Shown here piece after piece: positions 52,120 to 58,488 of a stretch of 64,000 nt of DNA. The first letter of the stretch is position 1; the number at the start of each line of letters is the position of its first letter. Location: positions 930,001 to 994,000 of the forward strand of contig NZ_CP049298.1 of assembly GCF_011058315.1 (NCBI RefSeq), given 5' to 3'. The position numbers were made by a program, and so were the translations under genes. Below the pieces are notes generated by a model. The model was not told the origin of the DNA and did no database searches. It was given only the letters and a program-made list of their open reading frames with translations. The DNA comes from Chryseobacterium sp. POL2. Lineage in GTDB: Bacteria > Bacteroidota > Bacteroidia > Flavobacteriales > Weeksellaceae.

Positions 52120-52917
52120 ATGATTAAAAAACTACTTCTTACAGCCTCTTTGGCGACTTGTATTTCTGGATTTTCTCAAACATCAATTTTTAAAGAAGAT
52201 TTTGAAACAGAAGCTGGACGCAATTCTTGGATTAACACAGACAGAGATGGAGATGGAGAAAAATGGGAATTTGACAATTCCGAAATTGATAGTTTCACTG
52301 GTTTTTATGCCACATCTTGGTCTTGGTTTTTTGATGCTTTTACGCCAGATAATACATTAACAAGCCCTAGTATTATCTTACCAAATAATGCTGACAAAAA
52401 ATTAACATTAAAATTCGATATCGGCGCTTTTGATGAAGAAGTATTTCAAGAACATTATGCAGTATATGTCATCCCTGCCAACACTGAATTTGCAGGAACC
52501 GAAATACCTATTTTTGAAGAAACACTAGATGCTGGCTATATGGACGAGGCAAAACATGTGAATATTGATATTAGCGAATATGCAGGACAAGATGTGAGAT
52601 TGGTATTTAGACATTATGATTGTACAGATTTGTTGGTTTTACTATTAGATAATATTGAAGTTTTGGAAGAACCAAAGCTAGCCATTTCTGATATCAACAA
52701 AACGTCTGTTAAAATCTATCCTAATCCAACTTCTGATATTTTAAAAGTTTCTGGATTAAATAAAATTGAAAAAATAAGAATTTTTGATATGAATGGACAC
52801 AAAGTTTTGGAAACTCAAAATTCTGAAACTAATCTTAAAAATCTACTTCCTGGCTCTTATATTGTGAATATCTATTCTGAAAACAATGTAATATCCAGAA
52901 AGATTATTAAAAAGTAA
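52120..52917 (+). CDS. Cleaved-adhesin/MAM-like protein with type IX sorting domain
   Basis: The 265-residue product has a signal peptide ending near GFSQ. A jelly-roll domain (about 20-185) opens with FKEDFETEAG and closes with VRLVFRHYDCTDLLVLLLDN, as in cleaved-adhesin domains. The C-terminal type A sorting domain spans about 195-265 (VKIYPNPTSDILKVSG ... VISRKIIKK). It should be secreted by the type IX system and probably binds a ligand or anchors a protein. It lies between ychF and the curli operon but is not part of either. Confidence 0.9.
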   Translation: MIKKLLLTASLATCISGFSQTSIFKEDFETEAGRNSWINTDRDGDGEKWEFDNSEIDSFTGFYATSWSWFFDAFTPDNTLTSPSIILPNNADKKLTLKFDIGAFDEEVFQEHYAVYVIPANTEFAGTEIPIFEETLDAGYMDEAKHVNIDISEYAGQDVRLVFRHYDCTDLLVLLLDNIEVLEEPKLAISDINKTSVKIYPNPTSDILKVSGLNKIEKIRIFDMNGHKVLETQNSETNLKNLLPGSYIVNIYSENNVISRKIIKK

Positions 52918-52993: not shown

Positions 52994-53026
52994 AAAAAAG
53001 CGAACCTCTTCATACGAAGAGGTTCC
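52994..53026 (-). terminator. Terminator of the curli operon
   Basis: The perfect 9-base arms AACCTCTTC and GAAGAGGTT with a 4-base loop are followed on the minus strand by T6, 17 bases after the last stop. Confidence 0.85.
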
Positions 53027-53043: not shown

Positions 53044-54540
53044 CTATTCCCAGTCGGGCATCCAGGCGTTGCTGAAAAGCAACTTTCTAGAATCCTCGTC
53101 GGTAATAGAAAGTCTATAGACATCTTTCTGAGATATTCCATCGTTAGAAGTTTGGGTAAAAATAACCTCTGCTTCATTAGGTGAGAATCTAGGATCAATG
53201 TCAATATAGCCGGCTGGGATTTTCGTTTTAGTGGATACATCCAAAACTGTATCGTCTGTTAAATCGTATATAAAAATATGTGTATTGAGTTGTCTGTAGT
53301 CACTATTTTCAAAACCAGAGATATCTCGTGTATAGAGAATCTTAGTCCCTTCAACCGAGAAGTCTAAACCTCCAGCTGCTCCAGTAACATTTTCTAATAT
53401 GGTTTTGAGAACATTTCCTAACATATCTATTACATAAATCTTAACATTGTAACCATTGATATTATTAGTTTTCAATGCAATTTTTGTCCCATCAGCAGAC
53501 CATGCACATTCAGAAATAAAACTGCCATCTGTAGTTTGATAAACAAGCTGTGTGCCGCTACCATCTTTGTTGACACGGTATATTTTATCAAAGCTTGGGT
53601 ATAATATTTCTTTTCCATTGGCACTCCATGAAAAATCAACTTCATTAATATTAAAGCCTGAAATCGGAATTGATGTTACTTTAAACAATTCTGAGCCATC
53701 TGGTTTTACTGTAAAAATATGAGGATTACCTTCTACAACTTTAATAAATGCAATAACACCAGCTGCATTGCTCTTACGAGGTCGTATTGCACTTGTATTA
53801 TCTTTAGTAAGTTGAAAATTTTTGCCAAGTTCATCTGATGAGAGAATACCTAGGTTATCACCTATTTTTCTTACAAAATGATATCTATTTTCTGGTATTT
53901 TGATGGTTGTAAACTTATTAGTTTTACTAAAAACTTCCTCGTTAATGCCATCTGATGCCACGACCTGCCAAAAATAACTTGTTCCAAAAACCAAACTATC
54001 CAATGTCAAGGATTTTTCAGTTAGATTCTTATAGGTTTTAATATCATTATTCTTATTATTTTTAAGAATAACTCTATAAGTAATCGAATCCTCATCTGGA
54101 TCTGTACAATTCCAACTTAGTTTAAGGGACAAAGCTTGATTTTCTGCATTATCAGCAGGTGTTACAAGCTCCGGAACAGATGGCGGAGAATTAAGTGTAT
54201 TATCATCTTTCATTTCGAATACGACACTTACGGTCTGACCATCGTCTTTTAGGTTAGCACCTTTTATTTCCATAATGTAGCCTTCTAGCTCTGCTTTAAC
54301 GGAGTAATCTCCAATAGGAACATCTTTTATTATAAAACTTCCATCCGCAGCCGTAAAAATTGTTTCTGTTGTAGGTGCCGTCGTTATTTTCACATTCTGA
54401 AGAGGCTCATTGGTTTTATACTTCACTGCTACGCCTTTGATGTTTGCTTTATAGGTTTTTTCCACCAGATCTTCGCTACATCCTGTCAATATTAATATCA
54501 AAAAAAGGAATAGAAACTTTATATATTTATATGAATTCAT
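53044..54540 (-). CDS. Multi-domain propeller lipoprotein at the end of the curli operon
   Basis: From the ATG at 54540 (498 residues) the N-terminus is a lipoprotein signal with lipobox LTGC. A carboxypeptidase regulatory-like beta sandwich (about 20-115) leads to a fibronectin-III-like domain (about 120-215, PSVPELVTPADNAENQALSL) and a TolB-like beta-propeller (about 220-498, SWSANGKEILYPS, WSADGTKIAL). An upstream ATG (54582) would overlap csgG by 20 bases and spoil the signal. It lies 22 bases after csgG. It may anchor or organise curli at the surface; no known csg gene resembles it. Confidence 0.83.
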   Translation of the reverse strand: MNSYKYIKFLFLFLILILTGCSEDLVEKTYKANIKGVAVKYKTNEPLQNVKITTAPTTETIFTAADGSFIIKDVPIGDYSVKAELEGYIMEIKGANLKDDGQTVSVVFEMKDDNTLNSPPSVPELVTPADNAENQALSLKLSWNCTDPDEDSITYRVILKNNKNNDIKTYKNLTEKSLTLDSLVFGTSYFWQVVASDGINEEVFSKTNKFTTIKIPENRYHFVRKIGDNLGILSSDELGKNFQLTKDNTSAIRPRKSNAAGVIAFIKVVEGNPHIFTVKPDGSELFKVTSIPISGFNINEVDFSWSANGKEILYPSFDKIYRVNKDGSGTQLVYQTTDGSFISECAWSADGTKIALKTNNINGYNVKIYVIDMLGNVLKTILENVTGAAGGLDFSVEGTKILYTRDISGFENSDYRQLNTHIFIYDLTDDTVLDVSTKTKIPAGYIDIDPRFSPNEAEVIFTQTSNDGISQKDVYRLSITDEDSRKLLFSNAWMPDWE

Positions 54541-54562
54541 GATTTTAAAGTTTAAGGTTTGA

Positions 54563-55969
54563 TTAGTTTTTAGGTTTTCCAAAATAATAATTAAGACTTA
54601 GTCCTATTCTAAAAAGGTTATCATTCCTTTTACCACTAACTAAATTGTCCCAATCATCATTCATTCCGAAATCATATTCACCATACAATCTTAGTCCAAA
54701 TTTTGGCATTGGTAGATATTCTATACCTGCACCAGCATTTATTTTAGTTTTAATATTATTAAAAAATGAATGGCTAGAACCTATCATTCCAACACCTCCA
54801 TACACATATGGCGAGACGTTGTCATTAGGCATTATCAGGTATTCAACATTAAAATCTAGACTATTAAACTTTCGCTTGAAAATATTAGAATTCACTAAAT
54901 AGAAATCGGCAACATTAGCATCCAAGCTAATATTATTGCTGACATATATTTTCATTCCAAAATTATATCCAATTTTGGCTTTTCCATCAGGATAATCTCC
55001 TTTTATGGTATTGGACATCAATCCACCAAACAGTCCAAAGCTTCCGCGTTTAGGTGCTATCAATCTGTTATCAATTCTAAAGTCTTCATTAATTTGCTCT
55101 TCTGTTTTTTGCTTTGCAATAAGACTATCCACTACTTTTTTATTAGATTCATCAGATTCCCAAAGACCATCTTTAACACCTTCTAAAACCAATGAAAAGA
55201 CTGCTTTTTCAATAGCTTCTTTCACTGCAAGGTGTACAGGTTCATTTTTTGTCACACCAATTTCTGCCTCCATAAGTCTTTCTGTGTCAACATATCGGAA
55301 GAAACTACCGCTAAGAGATTGTGATAAAATAGTTTTGGAAGTATAAATGGTTTTTAAAATTTTGCCATTATTGGTAGAAACAGCGCGCAGATATACCGAA
55401 ATGCGATCTTGTCGATATTGCGAACTAGCACCGATTCCAAAATAGCGCGCCCCTGCACCACCTGTCATTATATTAGTATCATAGGAAATAATTCCGCCTT
55501 CGATAATTACTCCAGCGAATAAAAGAGGTGGTAATGGCGTAGCAGAACTTTTTTGACCATTTGCTTGGTTTTGTAAAGCTGCATACTCTTGTCTTGTAGA
55601 TTTTATGATTTGTCTTTCATTGAGCAAATCACTAATATTTTCTCTTTCAATTGTAGTAAACCATTTTGAGTCTTCTAAAGCTTTTAGTAGAATAGAAGTA
55701 GTACCTTGAGGAATTGCGGTACTCCAGTTAGAAATATTCTCTGATGCTTTATACTGACCTGTTTGGTCTTTAAACTTATAGACTGCTACCACTGCTTTTT
55801 CTTTAGGTTCCGGCAAAGTTTTTAGCAACTTAGTATAAGGCGTTACTTCACCTAAAGTAGAACTTTGATAACCTGTAGGAGCTTTGAATAATGCACTACA
55901 GCTATTAAGTATTAATAAAGGAATTGAAAAGAGAAAATGTACTTTTTTTAGGTTACGTTTAAAATACAT
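54563..55969 (-). CDS. csgG: Curli secretion channel CsgG with extra C-terminal beta-barrel-like domain
   Basis: The 468-residue lipoprotein (lipobox LNSC, C24) aligns with E. coli CsgG over about 30-270: VAVYKFKDQTGQYK, LLNERQIIKS, MTGGAGARYFGIG, YTSKTILSQSL and DGLWES. In the channel-constriction loop the Asn is kept (N81) and the following aromatic is W82 instead of F56. After a linker (270-307) come about 160 extra residues with the alternating pattern of an eight-strand OmpA/OmpX-type barrel, ending LSLNYYFGK. E. coli CsgG (277 residues) lacks this. Confidence 0.93.
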   Translation of the reverse strand: MYFKRNLKKVHFLFSIPLLILNSCSALFKAPTGYQSSTLGEVTPYTKLLKTLPEPKEKAVVAVYKFKDQTGQYKASENISNWSTAIPQGTTSILLKALEDSKWFTTIERENISDLLNERQIIKSTRQEYAALQNQANGQKSSATPLPPLLFAGVIIEGGIISYDTNIMTGGAGARYFGIGASSQYRQDRISVYLRAVSTNNGKILKTIYTSKTILSQSLSGSFFRYVDTERLMEAEIGVTKNEPVHLAVKEAIEKAVFSLVLEGVKDGLWESDESNKKVVDSLIAKQKTEEQINEDFRIDNRLIAPKRGSFGLFGGLMSNTIKGDYPDGKAKIGYNFGMKIYVSNNISLDANVADFYLVNSNIFKRKFNSLDFNVEYLIMPNDNVSPYVYGGVGMIGSSHSFFNNIKTKINAGAGIEYLPMPKFGLRLYGEYDFGMNDDWDNLVSGKRNDNLFRIGLSLNYYFGKPKN

Positions 55970-55996
55970 TTTTTCAGATTTTGGTTATGTTAATTT

Positions 55997-56425
55997 TTAG
56001 TTAGTATTAGGAAGATTAATATTGGTTTGTTCTCCAGTATTCATATCTATAATACCTATGTTAAGGCCTCCAAAATATTCAGAGATTGTAACATTTAGCG
56101 ACCCCATATTGTAAACACCTGGCGTTAAGTTCGAATCTCCTAAGTCTCCACCAAATAAATTTCTCGAAATTTGATTAAGCAGTTGACGATTAAGATTTTC
56201 TTGAAAACTACCTATTGCTGTAGGTTGTTTGAAGCCTGGAGTTTTATTATCATCAAACTGGTTTTGCGCATTAGCTGAATTTAACAACCAACTGTAGTTA
56301 AAATAATCTCCTCCCAAAGCAGGGTTAATTGGTTTGTAAGCCATCTGTTGGGATTTTATGGAGGTATATCCTAAAATAAAAAGGATAACTAGCAAAACCT
56401 TTGGAACAGGACAAATTGTTTTCAT
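55997..56425 (-). CDS. csgF: Curli assembly protein CsgF
   Basis: The 142-residue exported protein matches CsgF. After the signal peptide (ending about KSQQ) come MAYKPINPALGGDYFNYSWLL and NSANAQNQF, the part of CsgF that inserts into the CsgG channel mouth. FQENLNRQLLNQISRNLFGG and a C-terminal VTISEYFGGLNIGIIDMNTGEQTNI domain follow. It couples secretion to nucleation. It lies 27 bases upstream of csgG and 3 bases after the csgE-like gene. Confidence 0.92.
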   Translation of the reverse strand: MKTICPVPKVLLVILFILGYTSIKSQQMAYKPINPALGGDYFNYSWLLNSANAQNQFDDNKTPGFKQPTAIGSFQENLNRQLLNQISRNLFGGDLGDSNLTPGVYNMGSLNVTISEYFGGLNIGIIDMNTGEQTNINLPNTN

Positions 56426-56428
56426 GTT

Positions 56429-57193
56429 TCAGGGAGCTCTTAACTCCTTATCTAATAGTTTGCTTTCCCTATAATAATTATTAAGATACCGCATTGTTAT
56501 CTGTGCTTGTGCAATGATGTAATCATCATTTGGAACCACACGAAAACTGTAGATATTTTTATCACTTGTATCAATATTTATTATACCATTTCTACCTATT
56601 GAAGGTAATTCGTTAATATTAATTACAAAAGCGAATTGATCAGTAGAATCTTTATATATATTATAAAATGCCTCAAAAAAATCTTTTCCAATTTTACTTT
56701 TGGTATTGTCCACTACAAGACCTTTCAATTCAAAATCTTCTTCTTTAACAATTTCATCTTTCTCATTACTAAAGTTATTTTTATGGCTTAGTAACTCGTC
56801 TGACTTTACATTAAAAAACAAAGAGTCTTTGGAAACTAATTGATTTTCTTTTTCATTTCTAATAAACAAATAAATTTTTACTTGATCATCATTGGCATAA
56901 TTAATTGTTATTTGTGATAAATCTTTTCTCTCATCTGGACTGATAATAAACCGCCCTTCTTGCTTGTTATTTGAAATATTGCCGTTAGAAGAACGCTTGA
57001 TACTTATCAAAAGATAATTAAGAGCATGCACAATGTCGTCATTATTAATGGCCTTAGCATGAATCGAAATCATATTCTCGGCATTTTTAACTTCTATAGC
57101 AGCTTTCACATCAATAGTATTTTCAATTTGAGAAAAAAATAGTATAGGGGAAAAAATTAATAAACAAGAAAACAAGTAAAACAAATTTTTCAT
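56429..57193 (-). CDS. csgE: CsgE-family curli secretion factor with N-terminal CsgC/CsgH-like domain
   Basis: The 254-residue exported protein has two parts. The C-terminal half (about 155-254) aligns with E. coli CsgE: LKGLVVDNTKSKIGKDFFEA, VININELPSIGRNG and NIYSFRVVPNDDYI. The N-terminal half (about 22-132) is a predicted beta sandwich with a pattern like CsgH/CsgC (ALNYLLISIKRSSNGN, EGRFIISPDERKDLSQI), proteins that block premature curlin aggregation. CsgE caps the CsgG channel in the periplasm. The CsgE part is firm, the N-terminal assignment tentative. Confidence 0.85.
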   Translation of the reverse strand: MKNLFYLFSCLLIFSPILFFSQIENTIDVKAAIEVKNAENMISIHAKAINNDDIVHALNYLLISIKRSSNGNISNNKQEGRFIISPDERKDLSQITINYANDDQVKIYLFIRNEKENQLVSKDSLFFNVKSDELLSHKNNFSNEKDEIVKEEDFELKGLVVDNTKSKIGKDFFEAFYNIYKDSTDQFAFVININELPSIGRNGIINIDTSDKNIYSFRVVPNDDYIIAQAQITMRYLNNYYRESKLLDKELRAP

Positions 57194-57204
57194 TACATAT
57201 TTTT

Positions 57205-57597
57205 TTATCTGTTTTCTATAAATATACTTTTATTACTTCCAATTATTTCAACACTCATTCCATTAGAAATAGAATTGCTACCATCTACTACAATGATATT
57301 ATTATTACCAATTGTTCTTATCGTCATCTCTGACATTTGGTTTCTGTTATAATCAATATAATTTGCTACATTGTTATTACCCATCTGCAAACTATAAAGC
57401 TTATCATCTATTAAGCTTGCTTCTAGCAAATTATTATCACCTAGTTGGATAACATTGCTTAAACTACCAATATCTGCCGATTGTGATGATGTGAGAAACT
57501 GTAAAACATTTTGAGAATTAAGGTCTTTAAATGATTGTGTTTTAGCAATTATAAAAAAGCTAAAACTAAACATTATAAAAAGAAACTTTGTTCTCAT
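57205..57597 (-). CDS. Second curlin-like subunit, possible nucleator (CsgB-like)
   Basis: The 130-residue exported protein (signal peptide ending KTQ) carries a few degenerate curlin-type units: VIQLGDNNLLEASLID, LQMGNNNVANYI, RTIGNNNIIVVDG and EIIGSNKSIFIEN. Fewer repeats, much sequence variation and position after the major curlin suggest a minor or nucleating subunit. It is separated from csgA by a strong hairpin and from csgE by 11 bases. Confidence 0.78.
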   Translation of the reverse strand: MRTKFLFIMFSFSFFIIAKTQSFKDLNSQNVLQFLTSSQSADIGSLSNVIQLGDNNLLEASLIDDKLYSLQMGNNNVANYIDYNRNQMSEMTIRTIGNNNIIVVDGSNSISNGMSVEIIGSNKSIFIENR

Positions 57598-57618
57598 TTT
57601 GATAGAAATAATAAAAGA

Positions 57619-57658
57619 TAAAAAGGAGGAAGCAGCTTATTAATAAGTCTTCCTCCTT
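57619..57658 (-). terminator. Strong intra-operon hairpin after csgA
   Basis: The perfect 10-base arms AAGGAGGAAG and CTTCCTCCTT bracket an inner palindrome CTTATTAATAAG, with a T-rich stretch on the minus strand. It lies between csgA and the second curlin gene and probably lets only part of transcription continue. Confidence 0.8.
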
Positions 57659-57676
57659 ACATACTAAACTAATCCC

Positions 57677-58429
57677 CTAGTTACTTTGATTAACAACCAT
57701 TGAGTTGCCTACTCCAACTTGAGTTCCCACATGACTATGTGCATCACCTAGTTGAGTTACAACAGAAGAGTTAAAAAGTCCTGTTTGCATATCAAGAGCA
57801 CTATTGCCATTTCCATCTTGATATTGTTCTGCATAATTTGCCAAACCATCCTGCAGAACTATAGCAATATTATCATCTCCTAATTGGGTCTGTACTGACT
57901 CATTTAAAATTCCTGTTTGGCTAGCGAATGCAATATTGCCATCTCCTAATTGTCCTTGAGTTGCTGAATTACCCAGACCATCTTGTACAGCCCAAGCAAT
58001 ATTATCATTTCCCATAGAAACTTGTGTGCTTTCATTAAAAGCTCCAACTTGTGATACACGAGTATCATTATCATTTCCAATTTGTACTTGGAAACTAGAG
58101 TTGAATGCTCCTGATTGAGAAACCCAAGCATAATTAGAATTACCTAGTTGACCTGAATAATTTTCGTTACCAAGGCCTACTTGAGTTACATCGATTTCGT
58201 TATCGTTTCCATAACTTTCAGACTCATTCATATTACCAATACCTGTTTGAGTTGTACTAGCAATGTTATCATCACCTTGTTGGTGAATAGAGTTGTCGTT
58301 CATTAACCCTACTTGGTTTACTGTAGCTGAGTTCCCGTTACCTAATTGTGTAGTAACATCATTGTTAGCTTGAGCGAATGCAAAACTTGTTGCAAAAACT
58401 GCACATGCAGTTAAAATTAACTTTTTCAT
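57677..58429 (-). CDS. csgA: Major curlin subunit (CsgA-like) with ten 22-residue repeats
   Basis: After a signal peptide (about 1-20, ending AFAQ) and a short N-terminal segment, residues 28-247 are ten tandem units of exactly 22 residues, each made of two 11-residue halves of form Q-x-G-x-x-N-x5. This matches the curlin consensus (QxGxxN ladders) that builds the amyloid beta-solenoid. E. coli CsgA has five units, so this fibre rung count is doubled. The gene starts the curli operon, with an exact -7 box 32 bases upstream. Confidence 0.92.
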   Translation of the reverse strand: MKKLILTACAVFATSFAFAQANNDVTTQLGNGNSATVNQVGLMNDNSIHQQGDDNIASTTQTGIGNMNESESYGNDNEIDVTQVGLGNENYSGQLGNSNYAWVSQSGAFNSSFQVQIGNDNDTRVSQVGAFNESTQVSMGNDNIAWAVQDGLGNSATQGQLGDGNIAFASQTGILNESVQTQLGDDNIAIVLQDGLANYAEQYQDGNGNSALDMQTGLFNSSVVTQLGDAHSHVGTQVGVGNSMVVNQSN

Positions 58430-58460: not shown

Positions 58461-58488
58461 CAAAGATATGTTTGTCAACCCCTTCAAA
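58461..58488 (-). promoter_or_regulatory. Promoter of the curli operon
   Basis: On the minus strand TATCTTTG (58461-58468) is an exact -7 box, with a TTTG about 16 bases further upstream as a possible -33 element. It predicts a leader of roughly 25 bases. Confidence 0.6.

Follow-up and report, generated by a model that had tools for sequence, protein, structure and literature searches.

The closest described relative of the locus considered here is the curli (type VIII secretion) system of E. coli, encoded by csgBAC and csgDEFG, in which CsgG is a nonamer and CsgE caps the CsgG pore. How a toxic, self-assembling subunit stays unfolded and reaches the pore is an open question in functional amyloid biology. 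A curli operon of the flavobacterial type is present in Chryseobacterium sp. POL2, in a stretch of 64,000 nucleotides (contig NZ_CP049298.1, positions 930,001 to 994,000 of the forward strand) that is referred to below as the window and whose first letter is position 1 of all coordinates. The window locus and the E. coli system have in common the CsgA repeats, the CsgE, CsgF, and CsgG domains, and the secretion logic. In contrast to its E. coli counterpart, the window locus is a single operon without CsgD and without a separate CsgC; its CsgE carries a built-in chaperone-like domain and its CsgG a predicted additional barrel, and it contains an extra propeller lipoprotein gene and a probable attenuator after csgA.

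CsgC and CsgH (2XSK, 2N59; PMC4838910) resemble the N-terminal domain of this CsgE in their seven-strand fold, in their profile match, and in being encoded beside the subunits; the domain in the window differs from them in that it is fused to CsgE rather than stand-alone and has no cysteines once mature. CsgH-like sequences in Bacteroidetes have been noted by Taylor et al. (PMC4838910), and the Bacteroidetes curli loci surveyed by Dueholm et al. in 2012 (PMC3521004) hold, like the window, csgA/B, csgE, csgF, and csgG without a stand-alone csgC or csgD. That survey gave csgC as absent, whereas here a CsgC/H-like domain is found inside csgE. For relatives in which csgE is split between two reading frames at a long A run, the nearest counterparts are the slippage cases of C. 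rodentium tssM (A11; PMC4256274) and Shigella spa13 and mxiE (PMC5009743), where a stop likewise follows soon after the run and a secretion component is made from one gene in two lengths, as would be the case for split csgE. In contrast to these cases, the run in csgE lies between known functional domains of an amyloid exporter, one chaperone-like and the other an adaptor; it is found repeatedly, in several lineages, and slippage at it is a prediction from the DNA sequence.

The explanation that we favor, with a probability of roughly 0.75, is that the window holds a flavobacterial curli operon whose CsgE is a fusion with a chaperone-like domain, and that the junction between the two parts is a site of recoding in relatives. 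By profile and by model, the window CsgE is a two-domain protein in which a domain of the CsgC/CsgH fold (residues 29–128) is joined through a flexible linker (residues 135–154, disordered) to the CsgE domain (residues 156–252). Residues 31–119 match the NCBIfam profiles of CsgH (E 1.3e-7) and CsgC (E 8e-5), and residues 156–246 match CsgE (Pfam PF10627, E 5e-12); among relatives, the CsgH profile scores 43.2 bits (E 3e-11, above the curated cut-off), 35.2, and lower. The AlphaFold2 model, built from 35 sequences, gives the N-domain as a seven-stranded immunoglobulin-like sandwich, as in 2N59 and 2XSK, with a predicted local distance difference test score of about 95, followed by the disordered linker and a C-terminal CsgE fold. 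When the N-domain was compared with 350,542 PDB chains by Foldseek, CsgH (2N59) and CsgC (2XSK; TM 0.80 of the target) occupied ranks 1 and 2, with 15–16% identity in the alignments, and a profile search of the PDB found CsgE (2na4) and, weakly, CsgC. On these profiles and models, the CsgC/H that seemed to be missing is present in the flavobacterial operon, built into CsgE.

The fusion was seen in the Flavobacteriales examined. A phylum-wide distribution of the CsgC/H-like extension was considered and rejected, as the family hidden Markov model (HMM) found none on CsgE outside Flavobacteriales; elsewhere in Bacteroidota, the CsgE extension is LysM-like or short. In one locus (L055:1041-1794), the CsgE N-terminus is a LysM-like peptidoglycan-binding domain (Pfam LysM, E 2e-12), and a LysM-like N-terminus was recognized by eye in the CsgE of L052, L056, L058, L061, and L064–L066. 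Given that LysM-like and CsgC/H-like modules stand at the same place, it appears that module types have replaced one another at the CsgE N-terminus.

The evidence for recoding comes from 173 distinct csgE sequences of relatives, 131 of which are in frame and 42 split, with the chaperone and CsgE halves in different frames. The shift needed is −1 in all 42 split genes and +1 in none, and all 42 carry at the junction a run of A, ten long in 41 and nine long in one, which is placed exactly at the end of the chaperone domain. A run of such length is found in only 18 of the 131 in-frame genes (Fisher 3e-26 for the association with the split state, uncorrected for kinship), and the background is low: the remaining 821 kb of coding DNA in the loci contain just 5 runs of at least nine A. 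The usual junction in split genes reads NNA AAA AAA AAG; the run ends in AAG in 40 of the 42, creating an in-frame A AAA AAG heptamer, and a C follows A10 in two. In all split genes but one, a frame-0 stop lies 1–5 codons after the run. In each of the 60 genes with the run (the 42 split ones and the 18 in frame), a single frame continues into CsgE, while the other two close within 2–13 codons in every case (median 4, versus 16 in genes without the run). Both halves of the split genes are under strong purifying selection, the median ratio of nonsynonymous to synonymous substitution rates (dN/dS) being 0.054 in the part encoding CsgE and 0.075 in the part encoding the chaperone. A separate start for the CsgE half was rejected for 29 of the 42, in which the stretch before the CsgE domain offers no start codon in that domain's frame, and is disfavored for the remaining ones because the product would lack a signal peptide. 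On the two-domain tree, the split state changes 10 times, and at least five of these changes are forced by well-supported branches.

Within the window's family, split csgE genes occur in four genomes from two genera; in a Flavobacterium-like genus (g34), they occur in roughly half of the CsgE-bearing genomes sampled. Among the species with a split gene are Flavobacterium hibernum, F. chilense, F. pectinovorum, F. aquidurense, F. frigoris, and F. bizetiae. The tract is in frame as A11 in F. turcicum and F. poyangense and as A10 in F. endophyticum and F. microcysteis, which is expected if the tract itself, and not one frame, is kept. Taken on their sequences, the split genes point to programmed recoding that would give rise to both a free chaperone and the fusion, most likely through transcriptional slippage. 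As gene callers tend to cut split csgE in two, curli of Flavobacterium may be annotated without an intact CsgE.

It is very improbable that the splits are homopolymer sequencing errors, pseudogenes, or DNA-level phase-variable tracts. Homopolymers are error-prone on some platforms, and out-of-frame A10 is found next to in-frame A11 in close relatives (L157 beside L108 and L115; L158 beside L088), as such explanations would have it; yet tract and −1 direction are the same in all 42 sequences, which are distinct and come from many assemblies, some of them one-contig genomes (G509, G691, G718, G685, G822, G055, and G069). Moreover, the other operon genes are intact in operon-sized loci, dN/dS is 0.05, the +1 frame is never seen, and in-frame A10 genes (L105, L125, and L155) retain the tract with a different downstream frame. 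Sequencing error and pseudogene formation were rejected on the recurrence of the −1 shift in 42 sequences and the low dN/dS.

Whether the polymerase or the ribosome would make the shift is a finer matter, the protein products being identical in either case. A −1 programmed ribosomal frameshift at A_AAA_AAG, as in dnaX, is the less probable of the two routes, at about one chance in four by our estimate: the classic heptamer is in frame in 40 of the 42 split genes, and these have slightly more downstream structure than controls, whereas the two with C after A10 lack the heptamer's ending and Shine–Dalgarno-like stimulators were found in only 5 of the 42. A strong RNA stimulator downstream of the run was rejected, the structural effect being weak. 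A run of six or seven A suffices for a ribosomal −1 site, yet every split gene has nine or ten, and this minimum of nine favors the polymerase over the ribosome. Nine A or T is the diagnostic length for RNA polymerase slippage, and conservation of the run in homologs is taken as a mark of purposeful slippage (Baranov et al., PMC1088944). In the split relatives, at least nine A stand at the same place in 42 of 42, and coding in the shifted frame is conserved (dN/dS 0.054).

Several observations weigh against the reading of a chaperone–CsgE fusion with a recoded junction. The CsgH profile score of the window CsgE is 31.6 bits, slightly below the curated cut-off of 35. CsgC and CsgH both carry a disulfide, formed by CxC in CsgC and stapling the N- and C-terminal strands in CsgH; the mature N-domain of the window CsgE has no cysteine, the only one of the protein lying in the signal peptide. 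Since the disulfide was used by Taylor et al. to sort CsgC from CsgH (PMC4838910), the domain is named here CsgC/H-like, as neither of the two. Correction for kinship leaves just five independent pairs with support, and a sign test cannot reach significance on so few. Downstream RNA structure is slightly stronger in split genes (z −1.17 versus −0.48). In addition, the window csgE is itself in frame, and the longest A run at its junction is 5, so that only the fusion is expected from it.

The mechanism can be pictured as follows. The periplasmic CsgC/H-like domain would keep curlin subunits disordered, and its tether to CsgE would let them be passed straight to the pore, with holdase and gatekeeper in one part. 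In split relatives, normal reading would end a few codons past the run and release a free chaperone, while one A added in transcription, or a −1 ribosomal shift, would produce the fusion; under RNA polymerase slippage, an A10 message would thus encode the free chaperone and an A11 message the chaperone–CsgE fusion, and the balance between free chaperone and chaperone–adaptor would be controlled by one gene. The window lineage would make the fusion only. We lean, with some reserve, toward the fuller scenario of a split-or-fuse switch, in which slippage at A10 sets the ratio of free to pore-bound holdase–CsgE, the switch arose several times, the window lineage has locked the fused form, and satellite barrels on CsgG further distinguish the complex. 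Two products, chaperone activity, and fiber formation are predictions from sequence and models.

That the N-domain is a mere spacer or scaffold of the CsgE ring, having lost amyloid inhibition, seems to us rather unlikely. The missing disulfide, the 15–16% identity to CsgC and CsgH, and the replacement of the domain by LysM or a short extension elsewhere in the phylum would all fit a spacer, but a split gene would yield the domain on its own, and its conservation there (dN/dS 0.075) comes close to that of the CsgE half, in keeping with an independent job. Furthermore, CsgH inhibits CsgA despite sharing less than 20% identity with CsgC (PMC4838910). If the N-domain is indeed inhibitor-like, its fusion to the pore adaptor points to the site of subunit hand-over, and the coexistence of split and fused relatives offers a natural test of whether free and tethered chaperones differ in their job. 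Recurrent slippage at an exact domain border, if true, would make csgE an unusually clear-cut example of a recoded cellular gene.

The second enlarged component is CsgG. In the window protein, the CsgG domain (residues 52–272) is followed by a helix and a C-terminal eight-stranded barrel (residues 311–463; window 54581–55039), the strands of which are modeled by AlphaFold2 with confidence mostly of 80–95, the CsgG part being poorly modeled as a monomer. By Foldseek, the CsgG domain matches 4UV2 and the barrel matches NspA, OmpA, and OprF; the model thus shows an added outer-membrane barrel of the OmpA/NspA type. CsgG is 446–518 residues long in all larger loci, versus 277 in the E. coli-type PDB chain. 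If CsgG is a nonamer here too, nine small barrels would surround the pore, where they may serve in anchoring or spacing.

A further feature, missed in the sequence-only reading of this DNA, is a terminator-like hairpin in the gap between csgA and the gene of the second subunit, in which AAGGAGGAAG pairs with CTTCCTCCTT and a T-rich stretch follows. Comparable hairpins are present in 84 of 98 such gaps in relatives, versus 0–3 in shuffles. The hairpin is probably an attenuator, which would make csgA transcripts more abundant than those of the export machinery.

The sequence-only reading had described a complete six-gene curli operon with modified secretion parts, and it is partly supported. All six open reading frames are present on the minus strand in one leftward run (58429–53044), separated in operon order by 79, 11, 3, 27, and 22 bases; CsgE, CsgF, and CsgG, named there from the letters, all match their Pfam profiles, as do the curlin repeats, with scores well over the cut-offs (for CsgE and CsgF the gathering cut-off), and the propeller of the sixth product was confirmed. 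The two components said to be enlarged are so, by the CsgC/H-like domain on CsgE and the barrel on CsgG. Its terminator was borne out as a strong intrinsic one, while its promoter was not, sigma-70-like matches being at chance level (33 versus 29.8 expected). The box TATCTTTG at 58468–58461 fits the Bacteroidota consensus TAnnTTTG and is a candidate only.

The lack of CsgD and the six-gene layout, offered there as surprises, are both real and were rejected as such. The order csgA, second subunit, csgE, csgF, csgG, lipoprotein is identical in 20 of 20 loci of the window's family and, with few exceptions, recurs in the larger loci, about 80 in number (Flavobacterium, Aquimarina, and others), so that it is the standard flavobacterial arrangement, and csgD is known to be absent in Bacteroidetes other than Spirosoma (PMC3521004). 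CsgE was found in 75 of 200 sampled genomes of the window's family. One might then hold that this is an ordinary curli operon with nothing more to explain, all core Csg profiles being matched; this is improbable, given that the two extra domains and the conserved junction run lie outside the published picture, as far as searched, and that the domain and frame data contradict it. The literature searched, which leaves out supplementary files and subscription papers, holds nothing that joins csgE with frameshift and slippage. Neither the CsgE fusion nor slippage of csgE is mentioned in the main text of the CsgC/CsgH study (PMC4838910) or in a later review (PMC5135000), the main texts on curli diversity are likewise silent on a fusion, and curli are not mentioned in the recoding surveys checked. 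The fused CsgE and the putative junction slippage are apparently undescribed, although priority is not certain.

Table 1. Features of the curli operon in the window (all on the minus strand)
Feature	Coordinates	Strand	Evidence or remark
Candidate Bacteroidota −7 box TATCTTTG, about 32 bases upstream of csgA	58461..58468	−	read from the sequence
csgA, curlin subunit, 250 residues, signal peptide	57677..58429	−	PF07012 E 5.4e-18; motif count
csgA–csgA2 gap with terminator-like hairpin	57598..57676	−	RNA fold; gaps of relatives
csgA2, second curlin-like subunit (CsgB-like position), 130 residues	57205..57597	−	orthologs at the same place in 20/20 family loci
csgE, 254 residues, signal peptide, CsgC/CsgH-like domain, linker, CsgE domain	56429..57193	−	PF10627 E 5e-12; NCBIfam CsgH/CsgC
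csgE linker codons, about residues 132–152, in frame, no long A run	56738..56800	−	relatives carry A9–A11 here
csgF, 142 residues	55997..56425	−	PF10614 E 9e-32
csgG, 468 residues, lipoprotein signal	54563..55969	−	PF03783 E 4e-63; PF13505 E 2e-4
Lipoprotein, 498 residues, CarboxypepD_reg-like, fn3-like, and TolB-like propeller parts	53044..54540	−	PF13620 E 4e-9; fn3 E 5e-4; TolB propeller E 1e-11
Intrinsic terminator, stem 53025–53002, ten pairs	53002..53025	−	terminator scan; fold z −3.3

The csgA product contains seven Curlin_rpt stretches and 17 Q-x-G-x-x-N motifs, the minimal form of the curlin repeat x6QxGx2Nx10, in a register of 11 residues. The second subunit has two such motifs and matches no curlin profile of its own, nor any other Pfam or NCBIfam profile; its Flavobacterium orthologs are detected by the curlin HMM. 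The genome has one copy of CsgG. For the lipoprotein, the ATG at 54540 is the most likely start, since a TTG-started frame reaching 54582 overlaps csgG.

Some relatives depart from the common plan. The Flavobacteriaceae bacterium RhTr2 has tandem curli operons on one contig (L174 and L217) with differing csgE genes, one of which has an in-frame A10 run. A curlin-like protein of 939 residues is encoded in an Allomuricauda metagenome-assembled genome (L185), and two extra large curlin genes lie between csgE and csgF in Aquimarina intermedia (L208). The sixth-gene lipoprotein of Flavobacterium sp. KJJ (L150 and L223) has an A9 run, possibly slippery, inside an intact frame. In the window, the operon has unrelated housekeeping neighbors, namely, a YchF GTPase, a prephenate dehydratase, and an MgsA-type AAA ATPase (Pfam), and the convergent gene adjoining it (52120–52917, plus strand) encodes a Cleaved_Adhesin domain and a C-terminal tail for type IX secretion.

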